This document shows positions 1,711 through 54,343 of a stretch of 64,000 nucleotides of DNA, in pieces (positions within the stretch are counted from its first letter, which is position 1; every line of letters starts with the position of its first letter). The notes beneath the pieces are model-generated. The model had not been told where the DNA came from. It did not search any database and saw nothing but the letters and a program-made list of their open reading frames with translations. The translations under genes were made by a program, and so were the position numbers. The stretch covers positions 1 through 64,000 of the forward strand of contig CASFCK010000002.1 in NCBI GenBank assembly GCA_949293265.1. Reading direction: 5' to 3'. This DNA is from an uncultured bacterium. Its GTDB lineage: Bacteria; Bacillota_I; Bacilli_A; Acholeplasmatales; Anaeroplasmataceae.

Positions 1711-3567
1711 ATGTTAAAAAATGGTTTTATTAAAGTTGCTTGCGTAACTCCAAATTTAGAAGTTGGTAATCCAAAATTTAATATTCAAGAGATTATTGCC
1801 TTAGCTAATGAAGCTAAAAGCAGCATAACTGTATTTCCGGAATTATGTATTAGTGGTTATACTTGTGGTGATTTCTTTTATCAAGATAGTTTAATTAAAG
1901 ATGTATATGAAGCTATAGAACATTTTCGTCTGGCAAATGAAAATAAAGGAATCGTTGTTTTAGGTTCTCCTTTAGTTTGTGAAGGCTCATTAATAAATGC
2001 GGCTATAGTTTTCCATCATCACCAAATACTTGGGGTAGTGCCTAAAAGAACGATTCCTAATAATCATGAATTTTATGAAAAAAGATGGTTTAAATCAGCA
2101 CGAAATATAACAACAAATCAAATTTATATAAATGGTTTTATGTATCCGTTAGGCCAAATTTTGTTTCATGACTATGCTAATCATATTCATTTTGGTATTG
2201 AAATATGTGAAGATATGTGGTCAAGTATTACACCAGCAAACAGCTTAGCTTTATGTGGTGCTAATATGACTATAAATTTGTCAGCCTCAAATGAAGTTTT
2301 ATATAAAAGTGAAATTAGAAGAAATACGGTATTAGAAAATTCTAGAAGAAACACTGGTGCCTATATTTATGTTTCAGCAGGTGTTAATGAATCAACTTCT
2401 GATACGGTATATAGTGGCCATAATATAATTGCTTGTTGTGGCGGATTACTAAAAGAGACTGAAAATTTCAGTCCTGATTCAGAGATAATATATGCAGATA
2501 TCGATTTAGAAATGATTGAATTTCAAAGAAGAAATCAAACTGATATGCATGATGATATTATTGTTGATTTTAAATATCAAGAAGTTCAATTTAGTTTGCT
2601 TGAAAGTGAAGAATATCATTTTGAAGATCAAATTGATACTACCCCATTTGTTCCAAAAAAAGAAGAATTAGCATGTTTTAATAAAATTGCAAGTTTGCAA
2701 GAATATGCACTATATAAGCGATTAAAACATACTGGTGTTAAGAGTGTAGTTATTGGGGTTAGTGGCGGTTTAGATTCGACTTTAGCCCTACTAGTTTCTG
2801 TCGAAGCTTTCAAACATTTAAATCTAGATTTAAAAGGTATAATTGCGGTTACTATGCCTGGTATGGGCACAAGCACAAGGACTAAAACTAATGCGGTTAA
2901 AATGATGGAATCTTTAGGCTTAACAGTACTTGAAAAGCCTATCGAAAAAGCTGTTTTACAACATTTTGCCGATATTGAGCATGATCCATCTATTAAAGAT
3001 GTAACATATGAAAACGCTCAAGCTAGAATTAGAACTTTAATTTTAATGGATTTAGCCAATAAATATAATGGTATAGTTATAGGCACTGGTGATATGTCTG
3101 AACTTGCTTTAGGTTGGTGCACTTATAATGGTGATCAAATGTCAATGTATGGCATTAATGCTGGTATACCTAAAACGTTAGTTAAATTTATGATCAAATA
3201 TTACGCCTTGACTAAATTCAATAATATAGCTGATACGTTAAATGATATAATTGAAACTCCAATTTCACCAGAATTATTAGGTGAAGATCAAAAAACTGAA
3301 GATAGTATTGGAAAATATGAAATAAATGACTATATATTATATAGATATCTTAATTGTGGTGATAATGAAGAAAGAATGGTTTTCCTTTTAAAAACAGCTT
3401 TTAACTTGTCAGAAGAAGAAGCTAGAAAATATGTGAAAAACTTTATTTTTAGATTCTTTACCCAACAATTTAAACGGCAAGCTACTCCAGACGGGCCAAA
3501 GATTTTAAATGTTTCTTTAGCGCCACGTGGTGATTATAGAATGCCAAGTGATATAAAAAGGTGGTAA
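1711..3567 (+). CDS. nadE: Glutamine-dependent NAD+ synthetase
   Basis: Cytoplasmic two-domain enzyme that amidates deamido-NAD to NAD+ using ammonia released from glutamine. Residues about 1-290 form a nitrilase-type glutaminase domain with the Glu-Lys-Cys triad visible in [18 protein letters not shown] and GIEICEDMW. Residues about 320-618 form the synthetase domain with the ATP pyrophosphatase loop [10 protein letters not shown] and the [12 protein letters not shown] stretch. The length of 618 residues fits the long, glutamine-dependent class rather than the short ammonia-dependent one of B. subtilis. It sits in an nadD-nadE-mnmA-recD2 run with minimal gaps. Confidence 0.95.
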
Positions 3568-3572
3568 TAAGA

Positions 3573-4706
3573 ATGGCTAAAAAAGTAATATTAGGTTTAT
3601 CAGGTGGGGTTGATAGTAGTGTAGCCGCCATTAAATTATTACAGGCTGGATATGAAGTAGAAGGCATGTTTATGCGTAATTGGGATAGCGCTACTAACAA
3701 TGATATTTTAGGTAATCCGGATTTAAATGATGATGTTTGTCCACAAGAACGTGATTACCAAGATGCCAAAGCGGTAGCCGATAAATTAGGTATTAAATTA
3801 CATAGAATAGATTTCATAGCGGAATATTGGGATTATGTGTTCACTTATTTTATTAATGAATATAAAAAGGGTAGGACTCCTAATCCAGATATTATGTGTA
3901 ATAAATACATTAAATTTGCAACATTCTTAAATGAAGCTAAACGACTTGGGGCTGATTATATTGCTATGGGTCATTATGCAAGAGTTAAACATCTAGAAGA
4001 TCATTCGCTTTTATTAAGAGGTATAGACGATAATAAAGACCAAACCTATTTTCTTTGTATGATAAATCAAGAACAATTAAGACAAAGCTTATTTCCGATT
4101 GGCGATATGCTAAAAAAAGAAGTAAGAGAAAAAGCTTTAGAATATGATTTAGTTACAGCCAAGAAAAAAGATTCAACTGGAATATGTTTTATTGGTGAAC
4201 GAAATTTTAAACAATTTTTAAAGAATTATTTACCTGCTAAACCAGGTAATATGGTAACTTCAGACGGTAAGGTCGTGGCTAAACATGATGGTTTAATGTA
4301 TTATACAATCGGCCAAAGAAAAGGTTTAGGGATTGGTGGAAGTCATGATTTTTTAAATGAACCTTGGTTTGTAATTGGTAAAGATTTAGAAAAAAATGAA
4401 TTGATAATAGGTCAAGGTGAAGAAAATAAATATCTTTATTCTAATCGTTTATATGCAAGTGAATGTAATTGGATTTATGATAAACCATTAGAAAACAAAG
4501 ATTATACTGCTAAATTTAGATATCGCCAAAAAGATATCCCTGTTAGAATAAAATACATAGATAATAATAAGATTGAAATAATATATAATAATACAGCTAA
4601 AGCTGTAACACCAGGTCAAGCAGCTGTTATATATGACGGCGAAATATGCCTTGGTGGCGCAATTATTGACGAAGTATATATGGATCTAGAAAAGAGAAGA
4701 TATTAA
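3573..4706 (+). CDS. mnmA: tRNA-specific 2-thiouridylase MnmA
   Basis: Thiolates U34 of tRNA-Lys, -Glu and -Gln using ATP and sulfur relayed from a cysteine desulfurase. The PP-loop is [10 protein letters not shown] at the N-terminus. The catalytic cysteine lies in [12 protein letters not shown] and the second active cysteine in [10 protein letters not shown]. The frame extends to a GTG at 3561, but AAGGTGG at 3558-3564 is ideally placed for the ATG at 3573, giving 377 residues, the usual MnmA length. It starts 5 bases after nadE stops, and its stop overlaps the start of recD2. Confidence 0.95.
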
Positions 4707-49131: not shown

Positions 49132-49214
49132 GCGGGTGTGGCGGAATGGTAGACGCGCTAGGCTTAGAACCTAGTGCCCCCGGCGTGCAGGTTCAAGTCC
49201 TGTCACCCGTACCA
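49132..49214 (+). tRNA. tRNA-Leu (anticodon UAG)
   Basis: 83 bases including encoded CCA. Acceptor GCGGGTG / CACCCGT, with G1-U72 as wobble; D arm GCG/CGC; anticodon arm CTAGG-CTTAGAA-CCTAG with TAG at 49165-49167; class II variable arm (GCC, loop, GGC); T arm with loop TTCAAGT; discriminator A. It decodes CUN leucine codons. It is the likely anchor point of the accessory region that follows. Confidence 0.96.
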
Positions 49215-49227
49215 TTAAGAAACAACT

Positions 49228-49270
49228 GTGCTAATTCGAGATTTTATGCTCAAATTAGCACTTTTTCTTT
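49228..49270 (+). terminator. Terminator after tRNA-Leu
   Basis: GTGCTAATT (49228-49236) pairs with AATTAGCAC (49253-49261), inner GAG/CTC, followed by T5C T3. Confidence 0.85.
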
Positions 49271-49275
49271 ATTTT

Positions 49276-49323
49276 TAGGCATTTTTGGTAGGGTTCAAGT
49301 CCCGTTATTAGTAAAATTGCCTA
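49276..49323 (+). other. Possible tRNA 3'-end remnant within an inverted repeat
   Basis: The stretch from 49289 to about 49303 (AGGGTTCAAGTCCCG) repeats the T-arm core of the tRNA-Leu 70 bases upstream (AGGTTCAAGTCCTG), followed by an acceptor-like but decayed end. It is framed by TAGGCA (49276-49281) and TGCCTA (49318-49323). It could be a scar from an earlier integration at a tRNA gene. The rest of 49215-49563 shows no gene. Confidence 0.3.
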
Positions 49324-49563
49324 GTTTTTTATTGCATTGTATTGGATTGATTCAACTTCATAAAAAAGCTTTAGTGTATTTTCACATGATAGGTACACCA
49401 TTGCTCACATTTCGTGTCATTCGTGTAAATAACATATTTTTTTTATAAATAGGTTTATTTTTAATAATTATTCCCCCTTTTTTATTGGATTGATAAAAAA
49501 TTTTTGAAAAAAGTGTTCAAAATGAAGATTTTTGTCCCTTATCTATTGAAGGAGGTAAGTTAT

Positions 49564-49815
49564 ATGGTTAAAGAAGAAGTTATTAAGCTTAAAATTGAAG
49601 GAAAATCCTATAGTGAGATTTCAAGAATCTTAGGAGTAAATGAGTCTACAGCTAAAACTATTTATAATAGATTTAAGAGTAGTCATCCTGAATCATTTTG
49701 TCCTATGTGTTCAAAGTTCTTAATTCAAACTAAAGGACATCGCCAAAAAAGATTCTGTTCTAGTAAATATAAAGACCATTATTGGAACTTAATGAAAAAC
49801 AAAAAGAATAAGTAA
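49564..49815 (+). CDS. Small HTH protein with zinc-ribbon-like tail
   Basis: 83 residues. About 1-45: a sigma-70 region 4/Hin-like helix-turn-helix (EVIKLKIEGKSYSEISRILG, NESTAKTIYNRF). About 50-83: CPMC, then RFCSSKYKDHYW, similar to the CxxC...FCSxxCRxxWW tails of small proteins often found near recombinases in Firmicutes mobile elements. The fourth cysteine of that pattern is Tyr here, so zinc binding may be lost or use a His. The start is the ATG at 49564 with GGAGG upstream; the frame is open further upstream without support. It converges with the serine recombinase across a shared terminator. Confidence 0.75.
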   Translation: MVKEEVIKLKIEGKSYSEISRILGVNESTAKTIYNRFKSSHPESFCPMCSKFLIQTKGHRQKRFCSSKYKDHYWNLMKNKKNK

Positions 49816-49830
49816 AGAAACATATGAGAG

Positions 49831-49861
49831 ACTAGGCAGTATTTAAACTGTCTAGTTTTTC
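49831..49861. terminator. Bidirectional terminator between the HTH gene and the recombinase
   Basis: ACTAGGCAGT (49831-49840) and ACTGTCTAGT (49847-49856), one G-U mismatch, with T5 on the plus strand; the opposite strand serves the recombinase less well. Confidence 0.7.
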
Positions 49862-50463
49862 ATTTTTTTATGTTCTCTAACCAATCTAAAGAACGTACCT
49901 CTAGATACTCCTATAAGTGATGCTGCTTCACTATTTGTTGTTTCATGATTTATATATCTATCTAATATATCATTGGTGTTAGGTGGCGTGACTACTTTTG
50001 GTCTACCAAACTTAACACCTTTTTCTTTTGCGATTCTGATTCCTTCCATTTGTCTTTGCTTAATATTTGTTCTTTCGTTTTCAGCTACAAATGATAATAC
50101 TTGAAGAACGATATCACTTATGAACTTACCAACTAAGTTTTTACCTTCAATTCTTGTATCAAGTAAAGGCATATCAAGTACTTTAATATCGGCACCTATT
50201 GTTTTTGTAATATGAGCCCATTCCTCAAGTATCATATGATAATTTCTACCTAAACGATCTATTGATTTAACAATTAGTAGGTCGTCTTTTTTTAATTTCT
50301 TAATAAGCTTTTTGTAATTAGTCCTATCAAAATCTTTACCTGACTCTTTATCTACATAGATAAATTTATCATCTACTCCAAAATCTTTAATTTCTACATA
50401 CTGCCTATCGATATTTTGTTGTTTAGTTGAAACCCTAATATAAGCATAAATCAACTTAATCAC
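49852..50463 (-). CDS. Serine recombinase (resolvase/invertase family)
   Basis: 203 residues. The N-terminal catalytic domain has YAYIRVSTKQQNIDRQ with the nucleophile Ser (about residue 12), the Arg/Asp-rich KSIDRLGRN (about 66-74), and the E-helix region AENERTNIKQRQMEGI. GRPK and a C-terminal helix-turn-helix (NSEAASLIGVSRGTFFRL) follow, as in Tn3 resolvases and Hin/Pin invertases. It is too small for a large serine integrase. GGAGGTG overlaps the region just ahead of the ATG. It shares a roughly 260-base intergenic region with the restriction-modification genes and may act on inverted repeats there; its crossover site is unknown. Confidence 0.92.
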   Translation of the reverse strand: MIKLIYAYIRVSTKQQNIDRQYVEIKDFGVDDKFIYVDKESGKDFDRTNYKKLIKKLKKDDLLIVKSIDRLGRNYHMILEEWAHITKTIGADIKVLDMPLLDTRIEGKNLVGKFISDIVLQVLSFVAENERTNIKQRQMEGIRIAKEKGVKFGRPKVVTPPNTNDILDRYINHETTNSEAASLIGVSRGTFFRLVREHKKMKN

Positions 50464-50522
50464 CTCCGTATTATATACATCTATAAAACGGAAGATTAAT
50501 CAAGTAATAAGCAATAAAAAAA

Positions 50523-50724
50523 GAAGTATCAAACACAATATAAAAATGTATAAATTATTGGAATTGATAAAAGTACAGAAAAAAGTACGTTTTATTTGCC
50601 ATAAACAGAGATTTTTTGGAAAATATGTGATATAATTATGGAAAATTAGTGAAAACATTTGAGGTATCAAAACGTATACAATTTGATACTTCAAGACCTC
50701 ACTAATCAAAAATGGAGGTCTCAT
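50523..50724 (+). promoter_or_regulatory. Repeat-rich control region of the restriction-modification operon
   Basis: GAAGTATCAAA at 50523-50533, GAGGTATCAAA at 50661-50671 and the inverse TTTGATACTTC at 50682-50692. The last two form an inverted repeat, extended outward by TTAGTGA (50646-50652) and TCACTAA (50699-50705). In addition AGACCTC (50694-50700) can pair with GAGGTCT (50714-50720), which contains the ribosome site of the XRE gene. The two foldings compete. The boxes are candidates for XRE operator sites, similar in role to C-boxes of controller proteins. Confidence 0.6.
50628..50636 (+). promoter_or_regulatory. Extended -10 promoter of the xre-methyltransferase-endonuclease operon
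   Basis: TGATATAAT at 50628-50636 (extended -10). No good -35 is visible. Transcription from about 50643 would include the nested inverted repeats in the leader. Confidence 0.55.
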
Positions 50725-50928
50725 ATGATTGATTATCAAAAAGCAGTAAAAGACTTAAGAGATAAGTTAATTATGACCCAAGCAGAATTTGCAAAAATGC
50801 TTGGCGTTTCTTTTACCTCAATCAATAGATGGGAAAACGGTCTTAATAGACCAACAACAGTTGCTAGAAAGCAAATAGTGCAGCTTTGTAAAGAAAACAA
50901 TATCGAATTGAAAGAGGTAAATGAATAA
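50725..50928 (+). CDS. Small XRE regulator, probable controller of the restriction-modification operon
   Basis: 67 residues with a clear Cro/CI-type helix-turn-helix (MTQAEFAKMLGVSFTSINRW, ENGLNRPT). The ATG at 50725 has GGAGGT 5 bases upstream; the frame is open upstream through the palindromes but lacks support. It overlaps the start of the methyltransferase by one base. Size and position fit a controller (C) protein that delays endonuclease synthesis, but small XRE proteins also occur beside orphan methylases. Confidence 0.82.
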   Translation: MIDYQKAVKDLRDKLIMTQAEFAKMLGVSFTSINRWENGLNRPTTVARKQIVQLCKENNIELKEVNE

Positions 50929-52787
50929 TGCGATATTTAGGAAATAAAGAATCAATTGTAAGTGAAATAGTAGATTTAATAGATAGAAAGGGGCTTCTAA
51001 ATAATCGATATTCTTTCTTTGATGCGTTTTGCGGAACAGGAACTGTCTCAGATGCAGTTAAAAATTATTTTAATATTATATTAAACGATAATTTATTATT
51101 AGCTACTACATTTTCAAAAGGTAGAATTATAAGTCAATTATGTAATTTTGAAAATTTAGACTTTAATCCTTTTGAATACTTTAATAACAATAGCGAAACT
51201 AGAATAGGATTTTTTTCACAAAATTATGCTCCGCAATTGTCGGGTAGAATGTATTTTAGTGACTATAATGCTGGAAGAATCGATTATTTTAGAGAACAAA
51301 TTGAAGAATGGAAAAACAACAATTTGATATCTGATGATGAATATTCCTACTTATTAGGTTGTCTATTAGAATCAGTCTCTAAAGTTGCCAACATAGCTGG
51401 TGTTTATGGTGCCTATTTAAAAACTTGGGACCCTAGAGCAATAAAAGAAATTAAATTTTTAAAAATAGAAACTACTAATAGTGACAATGAACCAATTGTT
51501 TTAAAAACATATAATAATAATTTAAACGAAATAATTAGTGATGTTGATTGTGATATTTTGTATCTTGACCCTCCATATACGAAAAATAAATATTCAGTAC
51601 AATATCATTTATTGGAGACATTAATAAAAAATGATAATCCACAAATAGTTGGTATAACTGGAGGAAGACATTTTGATGGCGTGTCAGACAATTGGTCAAA
51701 AAAGTATCATGTTGAAGTCGAATTTGAAAAAGTCATTAAAAACACAAAAGCAAAACATATATTAATGAGTTATAGTTCTGATGGAATTATGTCAAAGGAA
51801 TATATTTCAAATGTTTTAAAAAGATACGGAAAGGAAGAAACGTTTGAGCAAATAGAAATAAATTATAAAAAATACCGAAATTATAAAACAATCTCAACCG
51901 ATGAACATTATGAATACATCTTTTATGTTGAAAAAAAGCCAAAAAATGAGGTTGAATACTATTGTCCATTAAATTATATGGGTGGTAAAACAAATGTTGT
52001 TAATTATATAAAGCCAGAATTAAATACAAAGCATACTTTGATTGATCTAATGGCCGGAGGATTCAATGTTGGAATTAATGGTTATGGCTTTAATTCGTAT
52101 ATCTATAATGATGTTAATTTTCTTGTTAAAAATCTAGTTGAGATGTTTAAAAAAGTAGACACCGTAATCTTATTAAAAAAAATAGACGCTATAATAAAAA
52201 AATACGAATTAACTAAACATGGACAGGAAAAATATATTAATTATAGAAATGAGTATAACAAAACACTTCAATACAAAGAAGACAAATTAATTTATTTGTA
52301 TACATTAATATTATATGGATTTCAACAACAGATTAGGTTTAATTCAAAATATGAATTCAATAACCCTATAGGTGAAAGCGGATATAACGAAAGCATAAAA
52401 GAAAAAATAGTTACATTTTCCTCAAGATTAAAAGAATTAAATGTGTCATTTCAATCAAAAGATTTTTCAGAATATATCGATATTATTGATGAAAATTGTC
52501 TTGTTTATATAGACCCACCATATCTAATTACTTTAGGAAGTTACAATGATGGAAAGAGGGGATTCAATGGTTGGGGAAATAATGAGGAAAAGAGATTGAT
52601 ATCTTTTCTAGATTCAATAAAAAACAAATGTTGCAAGATATTAATTTCAAATATTTTGGATTATAAAGGAAAGGAAAATGTTTATTTAAAGAATTGGATT
52701 ATTTCTAATTGCGCAAATGTAAAAGAAATTACTATCAGGGGCAGAAAGGAGGTTCTAATAACTTATGAAGCCAAAATTCAAAATTAA
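50928..52787 (+). CDS. Fused double D12-class DNA adenine methyltransferase
   Basis: 619 residues holding two complete Dam/D12-type N6-adenine methyltransferase domains. Domain 1: RYLGNK at 2-7, SAM motif FDAFCGTGT at 31-39, catalytic DPPY at 214-217. Domain 2: NYMGGK at 349-354, SAM motif LMAGGFNVG at 374-382, DPPY at 529-532. Such fusions (as in the FokI methyltransferase) methylate the two strands of an asymmetric site, each domain taking one strand. The N-terminal KESIVSEI and KTNVVNYI segments repeat the same fold start. The end overlaps the HNH endonuclease gene by 23 bases. Recognition sequence unknown. Confidence 0.9.
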   Translation: MRYLGNKESIVSEIVDLIDRKGLLNNRYSFFDAFCGTGTVSDAVKNYFNIILNDNLLLATTFSKGRIISQLCNFENLDFNPFEYFNNNSETRIGFFSQNYAPQLSGRMYFSDYNAGRIDYFREQIEEWKNNNLISDDEYSYLLGCLLESVSKVANIAGVYGAYLKTWDPRAIKEIKFLKIETTNSDNEPIVLKTYNNNLNEIISDVDCDILYLDPPYTKNKYSVQYHLLETLIKNDNPQIVGITGGRHFDGVSDNWSKKYHVEVEFEKVIKNTKAKHILMSYSSDGIMSKEYISNVLKRYGKEETFEQIEINYKKYRNYKTISTDEHYEYIFYVEKKPKNEVEYYCPLNYMGGKTNVVNYIKPELNTKHTLIDLMAGGFNVGINGYGFNSYIYNDVNFLVKNLVEMFKKVDTVILLKKIDAIIKKYELTKHGQEKYINYRNEYNKTLQYKEDKLIYLYTLILYGFQQQIRFNSKYEFNNPIGESGYNESIKEKIVTFSSRLKELNVSFQSKDFSEYIDIIDENCLVYIDPPYLITLGSYNDGKRGFNGWGNNEEKRLISFLDSIKNKCCKILISNILDYKGKENVYLKNWIISNCANVKEITIRGRKEVLITYEAKIQN

Positions 52788-53961
52788 GAGAATTGGTGCA
52801 CAAAATGCATCGCCTTGCTACGATACTTTTTTAACAGCAAACATATTAAATGACATATCAAAAAGACTTTTAAATACGATAGATTATGATGTTGAATGGA
52901 TTGAGGAAAGAAATAAAGGCCGTTTAATATTATTAGAAACCTCTAATGAAATACACTATATTAACTTATCTCAAACCGGAGATGTTAGAGGAAGAAATTA
53001 TCAGATTCAAAGTATTCCTACTGCATTGTCTATTTATTTATCTGAATCAAAATATCAAAAGAAGAAAACCTCGTTTTGGTTCTATTTTTTGCCATTTAAT
53101 GGAAATAATGAAACTAAGTATATGTTATTCTTTTATAGAGTAATGAAAACCATAGGGATAAAATTCGCCAATCCTGATTTTGGATTAGAACATACAGTAT
53201 TAAAAGAATATAGTACTGTCAAAGATGTTATTCAAGCTCGTAACACATTAAGAGAAACAAATTCTGGGAATAAATCCACATATATTACTGATGAAGGCGA
53301 CTATTATCATATTTATGGTAAAACATTTGGAGCAAATCAAAAAGAAACAACTTTATTATGTTTTGCAATATCCGCAATAACAGATAAACCAGTAAAACTT
53401 TTCCAGATACTTGATAATGAGTCGACAGCAATAAGCGAACAAGATAAAAAAGCAATAACTAAATATTCCTCTCTATATGGTAATTATGATATTGATGTTT
53501 TAGATGATTCATATCAGTTTGATGGAGATGATAGCGATGCAGTTAAAGATAATTTGCGTAGCCCACAATTTATTTACAACTTATTATCGAAATTTGATGG
53601 TGAAAAGAAATGTGCTTTATGTGGATGTAAGATAGAACGAATTATTCAAGCTGCACATATATATCCTGTTGCAGATATAAGAAAAAGACATGACTTAGAT
53701 TTTTCAGCTAAATTTAAATTGGCTGTTGATGGTGATAATGGTATTTGGCTATGTGAGAATCATCATAAATTATTTGATAGTGGTTTAATATGGTTTGAAG
53801 AAGGAAAATTGTGTATTTCAAAGACATTGAATAGTGATGATTTACTTTTTGTTAAACAAGTTACTACGATTGAGGAAATAGAACCTAGATTTATAAATGA
53901 AAGGATGTTAGCATTTTTTGATAGTAGGGCTGGTATACCGCCTAGAGTCGTTCTTGCTTAA
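52765..53961 (+). CDS. HNH restriction endonuclease
   Basis: 398 residues. The C-terminal HNH nuclease (about 280-345) has zinc-type CALC (Cys283, Cys286), QAAHIYPVAD with the catalytic His298, DGDNGIWLC (Asn325, Cys330) and NHHKLFDSG (His333 or His334). The first 270 residues are not recognised and would carry target recognition and dimerisation. AAGGAGG lies about 12 bases before the ATG, inside the methyltransferase gene. With the fused methyltransferase it forms a type II, probably type IIS-like, restriction-modification pair; pairing and asymmetric target are inferred from gene order and the double methylase. Confidence 0.85.
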   Translation: MKPKFKIKRIGAQNASPCYDTFLTANILNDISKRLLNTIDYDVEWIEERNKGRLILLETSNEIHYINLSQTGDVRGRNYQIQSIPTALSIYLSESKYQKKKTSFWFYFLPFNGNNETKYMLFFYRVMKTIGIKFANPDFGLEHTVLKEYSTVKDVIQARNTLRETNSGNKSTYITDEGDYYHIYGKTFGANQKETTLLCFAISAITDKPVKLFQILDNESTAISEQDKKAITKYSSLYGNYDIDVLDDSYQFDGDDSDAVKDNLRSPQFIYNLLSKFDGEKKCALCGCKIERIIQAAHIYPVADIRKRHDLDFSAKFKLAVDGDNGIWLCENHHKLFDSGLIWFEEGKLCISKTLNSDDLLFVKQVTTIEEIEPRFINERMLAFFDSRAGIPPRVVLA

Positions 53962-54343
53962 TTGATAATTACTAAAGCTACTTGTCTTATTTGGCATGTG
54001 ACTTTTTATATGTAATTGAAAACTGTCCAAATTTTACTATAAACAGTTATCGTTCATACATAATGAACTCATTTAAAACCTGTTGCAAACAAATGAATCT
54101 ACCCACTAAAAAATGAAACCGTATTATTATAGTTGTCATTAGACATGCTATAACTAATATTTGTCCGAGAAATCGGGCATTTTTTAATTTTTATTTGCTT
54201 TTTATAAATTAAAAATAATAGAGAAAAGACTATTATTTTAAAGAACTATTTATAAAATAATCCTCATAACCTTAATATTTTAGAAAGAATTAGCGTTAAT
54301 AAGACAAAAATTAAACGTTTTCTTTAGATTAATCTGTTTTTAA
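53962..54343. other. Intergenic region at the right edge of the accessory block
   Basis: About 380 bases with no supportable gene, very AT-rich in the second half. It contains one clear terminator (54162-54186). No copy of the tRNA-Leu 3' end was found, so the right boundary of the accessory region is not defined by a direct repeat. Confidence 0.6.
54162..54186 (+). terminator. Terminator downstream of the restriction genes
   Basis: TGTCCGA, loop GAAA, TCGGGCA (one T-G pair), then T6. It lies 200 bases after the endonuclease stop, leaving a long untranslated tail or an unrecognised small RNA. Confidence 0.8.

Follow-up and report, generated by a model that had tools for sequence, protein, structure and literature searches.

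Next to a tRNA-Leu gene, the 64,000-nucleotide stretch of DNA analyzed here (the window) carries a compact, mobile cassette that we consider, with good though incomplete confidence, to be a type II restriction–modification system. On this reading, which we judge as a whole and which includes the small size and mobility of the cassette, the system would act at an asymmetric site with an HNH engine mounted on a BtsCI-like recognition scaffold. The methylase M, one polypeptide with two adenine-N6 methylases, would tag the host's own DNA. The N-terminal domain of the nuclease R would read the sequence marked by M, and its C-terminal HNH domain would cut unmethylated DNA, in place of PD-(D/E)XK sites.

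The cassette, its insertion site and its regulator

The cassette encodes, all on the plus strand, an XRE/Cro-type regulator of 67 amino acids (50725–50928; HTH_3, 1.5e-11), M (619 amino acids, 50928–52787) and R (398 amino acids, 52765–53961). The XRE start is likely the ATG at 50725 and not that of the longer TTG frame; the final base of the XRE stop codon is also the first base of the M start, and the M and R frames share 23 bases. These frames, strands and overlaps are as the preliminary description of this DNA had given them. ARAGORN and Pfam likewise supported its placement beside the cassette of tRNA-Leu (49132–49214, plus strand; also Rfam RF00005) and of a serine recombinase of the resolvase/invertase type (203 amino acids, 49852–50463, minus strand; Pfam Resolvase, 2.2e-26). 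In the related locus L003, a similar recombinase starts at the equivalent place (76% over 21 amino acids).

We compared the region with a congener (G007), in which the sequence GCTTATAACTAA...ATATTTGTCCGAGAAATCGGGCA lies directly 3′ of tRNA-Leu; in the window, the same sequence starts at about 54147. Since synteny with congeners extends up to 49214, the last base of tRNA-Leu, and resumes only from about 54147, the cassette is an inserted segment of some 4.9 kb that directly follows tRNA-Leu on its 3′ side (49215–54146, the end being approximate) and consists of an HTH ORF, the recombinase, XRE, M and R. A terminator stem, located 3′ of the tRNA in the uninterrupted relative, is found at 54162–54179 (plus strand). 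No long direct repeats were found at the flanks of the insertion. The 3′ end of tRNA-Leu (49190–49216) recurs 102 bases downstream, inside the insertion (49292–49318), as a partial copy with 74% identity that is perhaps the trace of an earlier integration. The HNH nuclease gene was missing from all seven congeneric genomes searched, so the restriction system looks recent, and its target site would not be expected to show avoidance in the genome. In the closest congener (G006; L050, 2995–4656), on a contig that stops short of the tRNA, the genes next to the same downstream esterase include one for a DUF1016/YhcG-type nuclease and a small one of the HTH/zinc-ribbon kind. Given this different cargo at the same downstream gene, the site appears to be a defence-gene hotspot.

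Upstream of XRE, a 36-bp palindrome (50659–50694; 18-nt arms, 83% complementary, no spacer) is the probable XRE operator. It sits between the XRE start and a possible promoter, a candidate extended −10 element (TGATATAAT, 50629–50637, plus strand) that was picked out by eye and was absent from the promoter scan. GAAGTATCAAA at 50523–50533, an exact inverted match to 50682–50692, may be a second operator half-site. An AGACCTC/GAGGTCT inverted repeat with 7-bp arms lies over the XRE ribosome-binding site (50694–50721, plus strand). L003 contains a perfect 30-bp palindrome with the same core (111–140) and has kept the AGACCTC/GAGGTCT repeat (268–296).

XRE-type C proteins time endonuclease expression, a role that had been proposed for XRE in this cassette. 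Our analysis does not bear this out: XRE, M and R are cotranscribed by position, and XRE is absent from most family loci. Its PADLOC control-protein match was weak (0.013). Because the three genes appear to form one operon, transcription start alone could not make R lag behind M. More probably, XRE acts locally as an autorepressor that would repress its own operon, and perhaps the divergent recombinase too, through the palindrome, and would thereby set the level of XRE, M and R together. The absence of XRE from most family loci could also mean that it belongs to the recombinase module and not to the restriction system, as could the position of the perfect palindrome in L003, which is closer to the recombinase start. 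We find this assignment doubtful, if worth keeping in view, in light of the overlap between the XRE stop and the M start, the small Cro/C1-type genes that also precede M in L002, L014 and L016, and the XRE gene that precedes an LlaI-like methylase in the phage C41431.

A conserved methylase–nuclease pair

M consists of an N-terminal D12 adenine methylase domain (residues 1–338, 50928–51941; MethyltransfD12; DPPY at 214–217) and a C-terminal Dam-like D12 adenine methylase domain (residues 339–619, 51942–52787; TIGR00571 above cutoff; T4 Dam, 3e-30; DPPY at 529–532). Pfam MethyltransfD12 matched M twice (1.1e-53), a type II MTase profile covered residues 1–612, its full length (3.2e-153), and both DPPY motifs fall within invariant columns of the family alignment. 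The domains are complete and mutually unlike, and so the reading of M as a two-headed methylase of the FokI layout, with two full D12 motif sets in one ORF and DPPY at 214 and 529, stands. Fused D12 pairs, such as the FokI methylase, modify both strands of an asymmetric target; each half of M would accordingly mark one strand of an asymmetric sequence by adenine-N6 methylation.

R combines an N-terminal domain with a probable role in target recognition (residues 1–256, 52765–53532) and an HNH_2 nuclease domain (residues 283–344, 53611–53796; Pfam, 1.9e-11), for which Foldseek returned the VcaM4I HNH domain (4.1e-4). Residues C283, C286, C288, C330, H298, N325, H333 and H334 are invariant among 24 homologues.

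The M–R pair is present in about 28 genomes or plasmids from five phyla, and its two members are always adjacent. The R relatives come from Bacillota, Bacteroidota, Spirochaetota, Alphaproteobacteria (Microvirga), Gastranaerophilales and two plasmids, and the fused methylase lies directly upstream in every locus with the R N-domain, as far as contig ends reach. Because the pair recurs across phyla, the association is not due to chance. The separate but linked methylase and endonuclease genes, their intact catalytic motifs and their conserved linkage uphold the earlier designation of a type II restriction–modification pair. In a Lachnospiraceae MAG (L022, 4072–7182), methylase and HNH nuclease form one frame of 1036 amino acids, which may be a fusion that arose naturally or the product of a base error where the two genes overlap. 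Three distant relatives (L074, L075 and L080) lack an adjacent D12 methylase.

Relative to L003 (300–3542), the window is 88% identical in XRE and 83–87% in M but only 58–71% in R. Phylogenetic trees placed the window and L003 as sisters for M with full support, and for R in an unresolved group with L002 and L007. It is possible that R was replaced or that it has been changing faster. The HNH family comprises two clades, between which the R N-domains are about 33% identical. Some loci deviate from the simple pair: L008 has a second, divergent HNH nuclease of 460 amino acids directly after the first (2674–4056; about 29% in the N-domain), and several Bacteroidota loci (L117, 5029–6222; L118, 5219–6415; L119, 1140–2333; L123, 2–910) have an extra N6_N4-type DNA methylase gene after M–R. 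An Acholeplasmataceae MAG (L028, 6022–6410) retains only a frame-broken HNH remnant (58–65% identity), with no methylase nearby.

Probable recognition and cutting modules of the nuclease

Upstream of HNH_2, R has no Pfam match above threshold, and its N-domain has no sequence relative in the PDB. Matches to recA were rejected as repeats of one weak alignment, and matches to DUF1101, DUF1934 and AEP-like Pfam families were rejected as each was seen in only 1 of 22 homologues. Structure prediction, which the preliminary description had named as a check, gave a confident AlphaFold model (mean pLDDT 89.8, pTM 0.89). Foldseek against the PDB returned nothing for the N-domain, alone or within full-length R, and against viral structures nothing for R beyond HNH domains; viral contigs contained no relative of R or of R.Pin25611FI. 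The proposal that this unrecognised region may be a specificity domain agrees with our results, which make it the probable one and find it absent from Pfam and the PDB. It is not without relatives, however: R.Pin25611FI has a homologous N-terminal half, as detailed below.

Pin25611FI is a system of Prevotella intermedia for which GGATG/CATCC motifs were seen in the methylome (PMC5608340); one genome in our set (G603) exactly matches the published locus coordinates of Pin25611FI in strain ATCC 25611. The N-terminal half of M is 44% identical to M1.Pin25611FI over 204 amino acids, and the C-terminal half is 41% identical to M2.Pin25611FI over 251 amino acids. In the P. intermedia-matching reference genome (L116, 2800–3866), a stop codon interrupts the M1 gene, for which activity is reported in the laboratory strain that was sequenced. 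R.Pin25611FI has 475 amino acids, no Pfam match and no HNH domain.

As single sequences, R and R.Pin25611FI align weakly. When the R N-domain was compared with the R.Pin25611FI family by hhalign, the alignment reached a probability of 94.6% (E 6e-8) and a score of 61, against 28 or less in 60 column shuffles and 16 for a reversed profile; negative controls against an unrelated profile gave E values of 0.4–0.5. In searches without preselection, the only other match to R.Pin25611FI in 301 genomes was an HNH-family member (E 8e-4), and the R N-domain profile had three matches in 396 genomes, one of them an R.Pin-type enzyme (E 2e-7). Because the profile score is far above the shuffles and the reciprocal blind searches agree, the relationship is firm. 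Judged by these comparisons, the R N-domain and the front half of R.Pin25611FI are homologous; directly, this homology spans R residues 45–235 or so at 20–30% identity.

R.Pin25611FI and its relatives on plasmids carry D-X6-E-E-X14-QR about halfway along the shared domain and, close to the C-terminus, PD-X14-EXK. BtsCI, which acts on GGATG as a single chain and has two catalytic sites, is reported to contain SD-X6-E-X14-QR and PD-Xn-EXK (PMC6097692, PMC4081073). Both BtsCI-like motifs were present, with small spacing differences, in all four R.Pin-type enzymes, which suggests that R.Pin25611FI is BtsCI-like, the likeness being one of published motifs only. Neither catalytic motif occurs in any of the 24 HNH-family members. 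All 24 also lack a counterpart of residues 85–105 of R.Pin25611FI, a stretch of 21 that includes the acidic part of the first motif, with the gap placed by one joint alignment; where R.Pin25611FI has its PD-EXK motif, the HNH members have their C-terminal HNH domain. The probable recognition scaffold of R is homologous to that of R.Pin25611FI, and by way of this enzyme would belong to the BtsCI-like type. The likeliest course is that the scaffold for recognition was kept and cutting passed to an HNH domain; the reverse direction is possible. We give roughly even weight to a fuller history, in which a GGATG-type, BtsCI-like scaffold would have lost its active-site segment and PD-EXK domain and gained an HNH nuclease, the methylases would have fused, and the two clades would have diverged in target.

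Expected target, predicted activity and known systems

The two-headed methylase and the homology to a GGATG system favour the asymmetric target proposed earlier, and on the same grounds R would cut at or near an asymmetric site. With the R N-domain and each half of M all indicating a system of the GGATG kind, we expect, by a modest preference, a target with a GATG/CATC core, whose outer bases may differ. The exact target may depart from GGATG, since the window clade has PIGESGYN in the loop that follows the conserved FN.P of the C-terminal methylase domain, where enzymes of the GGATG type have PFGR[EN]RS and the second HNH clade has PVGMRWFN. Homology of M alone leaves the target unfixed, because methylases of the same layout pair with a FokI-type nuclease in L033 and with another HNH nuclease in L078 (4574–7685). 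The latter locus comes from a genome of the same class; its fused D12 methylase (36%/42%) is followed by an HNH nuclease for which pairwise BLAST found no N-domain relationship. EcoDam K9 was discarded as a guide to the first target base, as T4 Dam, also GATC-specific, has alanine there.

The loop difference between the GGATG enzymes and both HNH clades, together with the approximately 33% identity of R N-domains across clades and the plausibility of target change in D12 methylases, would also fit a type II system that kept the scaffold but changed all base contacts, with a target unrelated to GATG/CATC. We consider this rather unlikely: the Dam-type RFN..FN.P core is common to the M family and to T4 and E. 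coli Dam, and the M halves and the R N-domain independently indicate the same GGATG system. Other alternatives concern what R does. It has one HNH site per chain, where BtsCI-like enzymes are predicted to have two catalytic sites, and might be inactive or a single-strand cutter, leaving a methylation-only or nicking cassette; with all HNH and zinc-ligand residues intact, and with HNH type II enzymes such as MboII known for short asymmetric sites (PMC4081073), this seems improbable. More improbable still is that R is a modification-dependent, type IV-like HNH nuclease merely travelling with the methylase. VcaM4I provides the closest solved HNH domain, and R weakly matches a profile of phosphorothioated-DNA-binding restriction endonucleases (NF045808), but the N-domain occurs only beside M and is once fused to it, and its relative is the nuclease of an m6A-protected GGATG system, not a known modified-base reader.

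The very fast divergence of restriction enzyme sequences makes these enzymes difficult to classify. Here, one recognition domain appears in two enzyme families with different catalytic chemistry, both beside homologous methylases, a natural example of modular engine replacement. Such relatives offer a route to predicting what an uncharacterised enzyme recognises; the alignment of 24 HNH members, together with the division into two clades that differ in their methylase loops, provides predictions for methylome sequencing. The HNH versions could be of use for cutting at a GATG-type site in a new position.

Pin25611FI resembles the window system in its two D12 methylases, homologous to the M halves, in the N-terminal half of its nuclease and in the overlap of its methylase and nuclease genes. 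It differs in that its methylases are separate genes in another order and its nuclease has PD-(D/E)XK-type motifs and no HNH domain. The type IIT enzymes BtsCI and BseGI (GGATG 2/0) are approached through the R.Pin-type relatives, which carry nearly the published BtsCI motifs; R has neither motif, and BtsCI was set against the window by description only. FokI shares the fused two-domain D12 methylase, and a homologous fused methylase adjoins the FokI nuclease in L033; however, FokI has recognition and cleavage domains that R lacks, and the FokI Pfam match is absent from R but present in the L033 control. The C-terminal HNH region of R matches the MAG4270 family (NF045952), at 43.3 bits against a cutoff of 53 and over the C-terminal third only, which places R outside the family as defined; a homologue on a Pusillibacter plasmid bears the NCBI name MAG4270 family putative restriction endonuclease. 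Finally, MhoVII of Mycoplasma hominis also combines, in one operon, one nuclease with a fused methylase that serves both strands of its asymmetric site, GATG/CATC (PMC12898733), whereas its N-terminal methylase is YhdJ-type and its nuclease is of another family.
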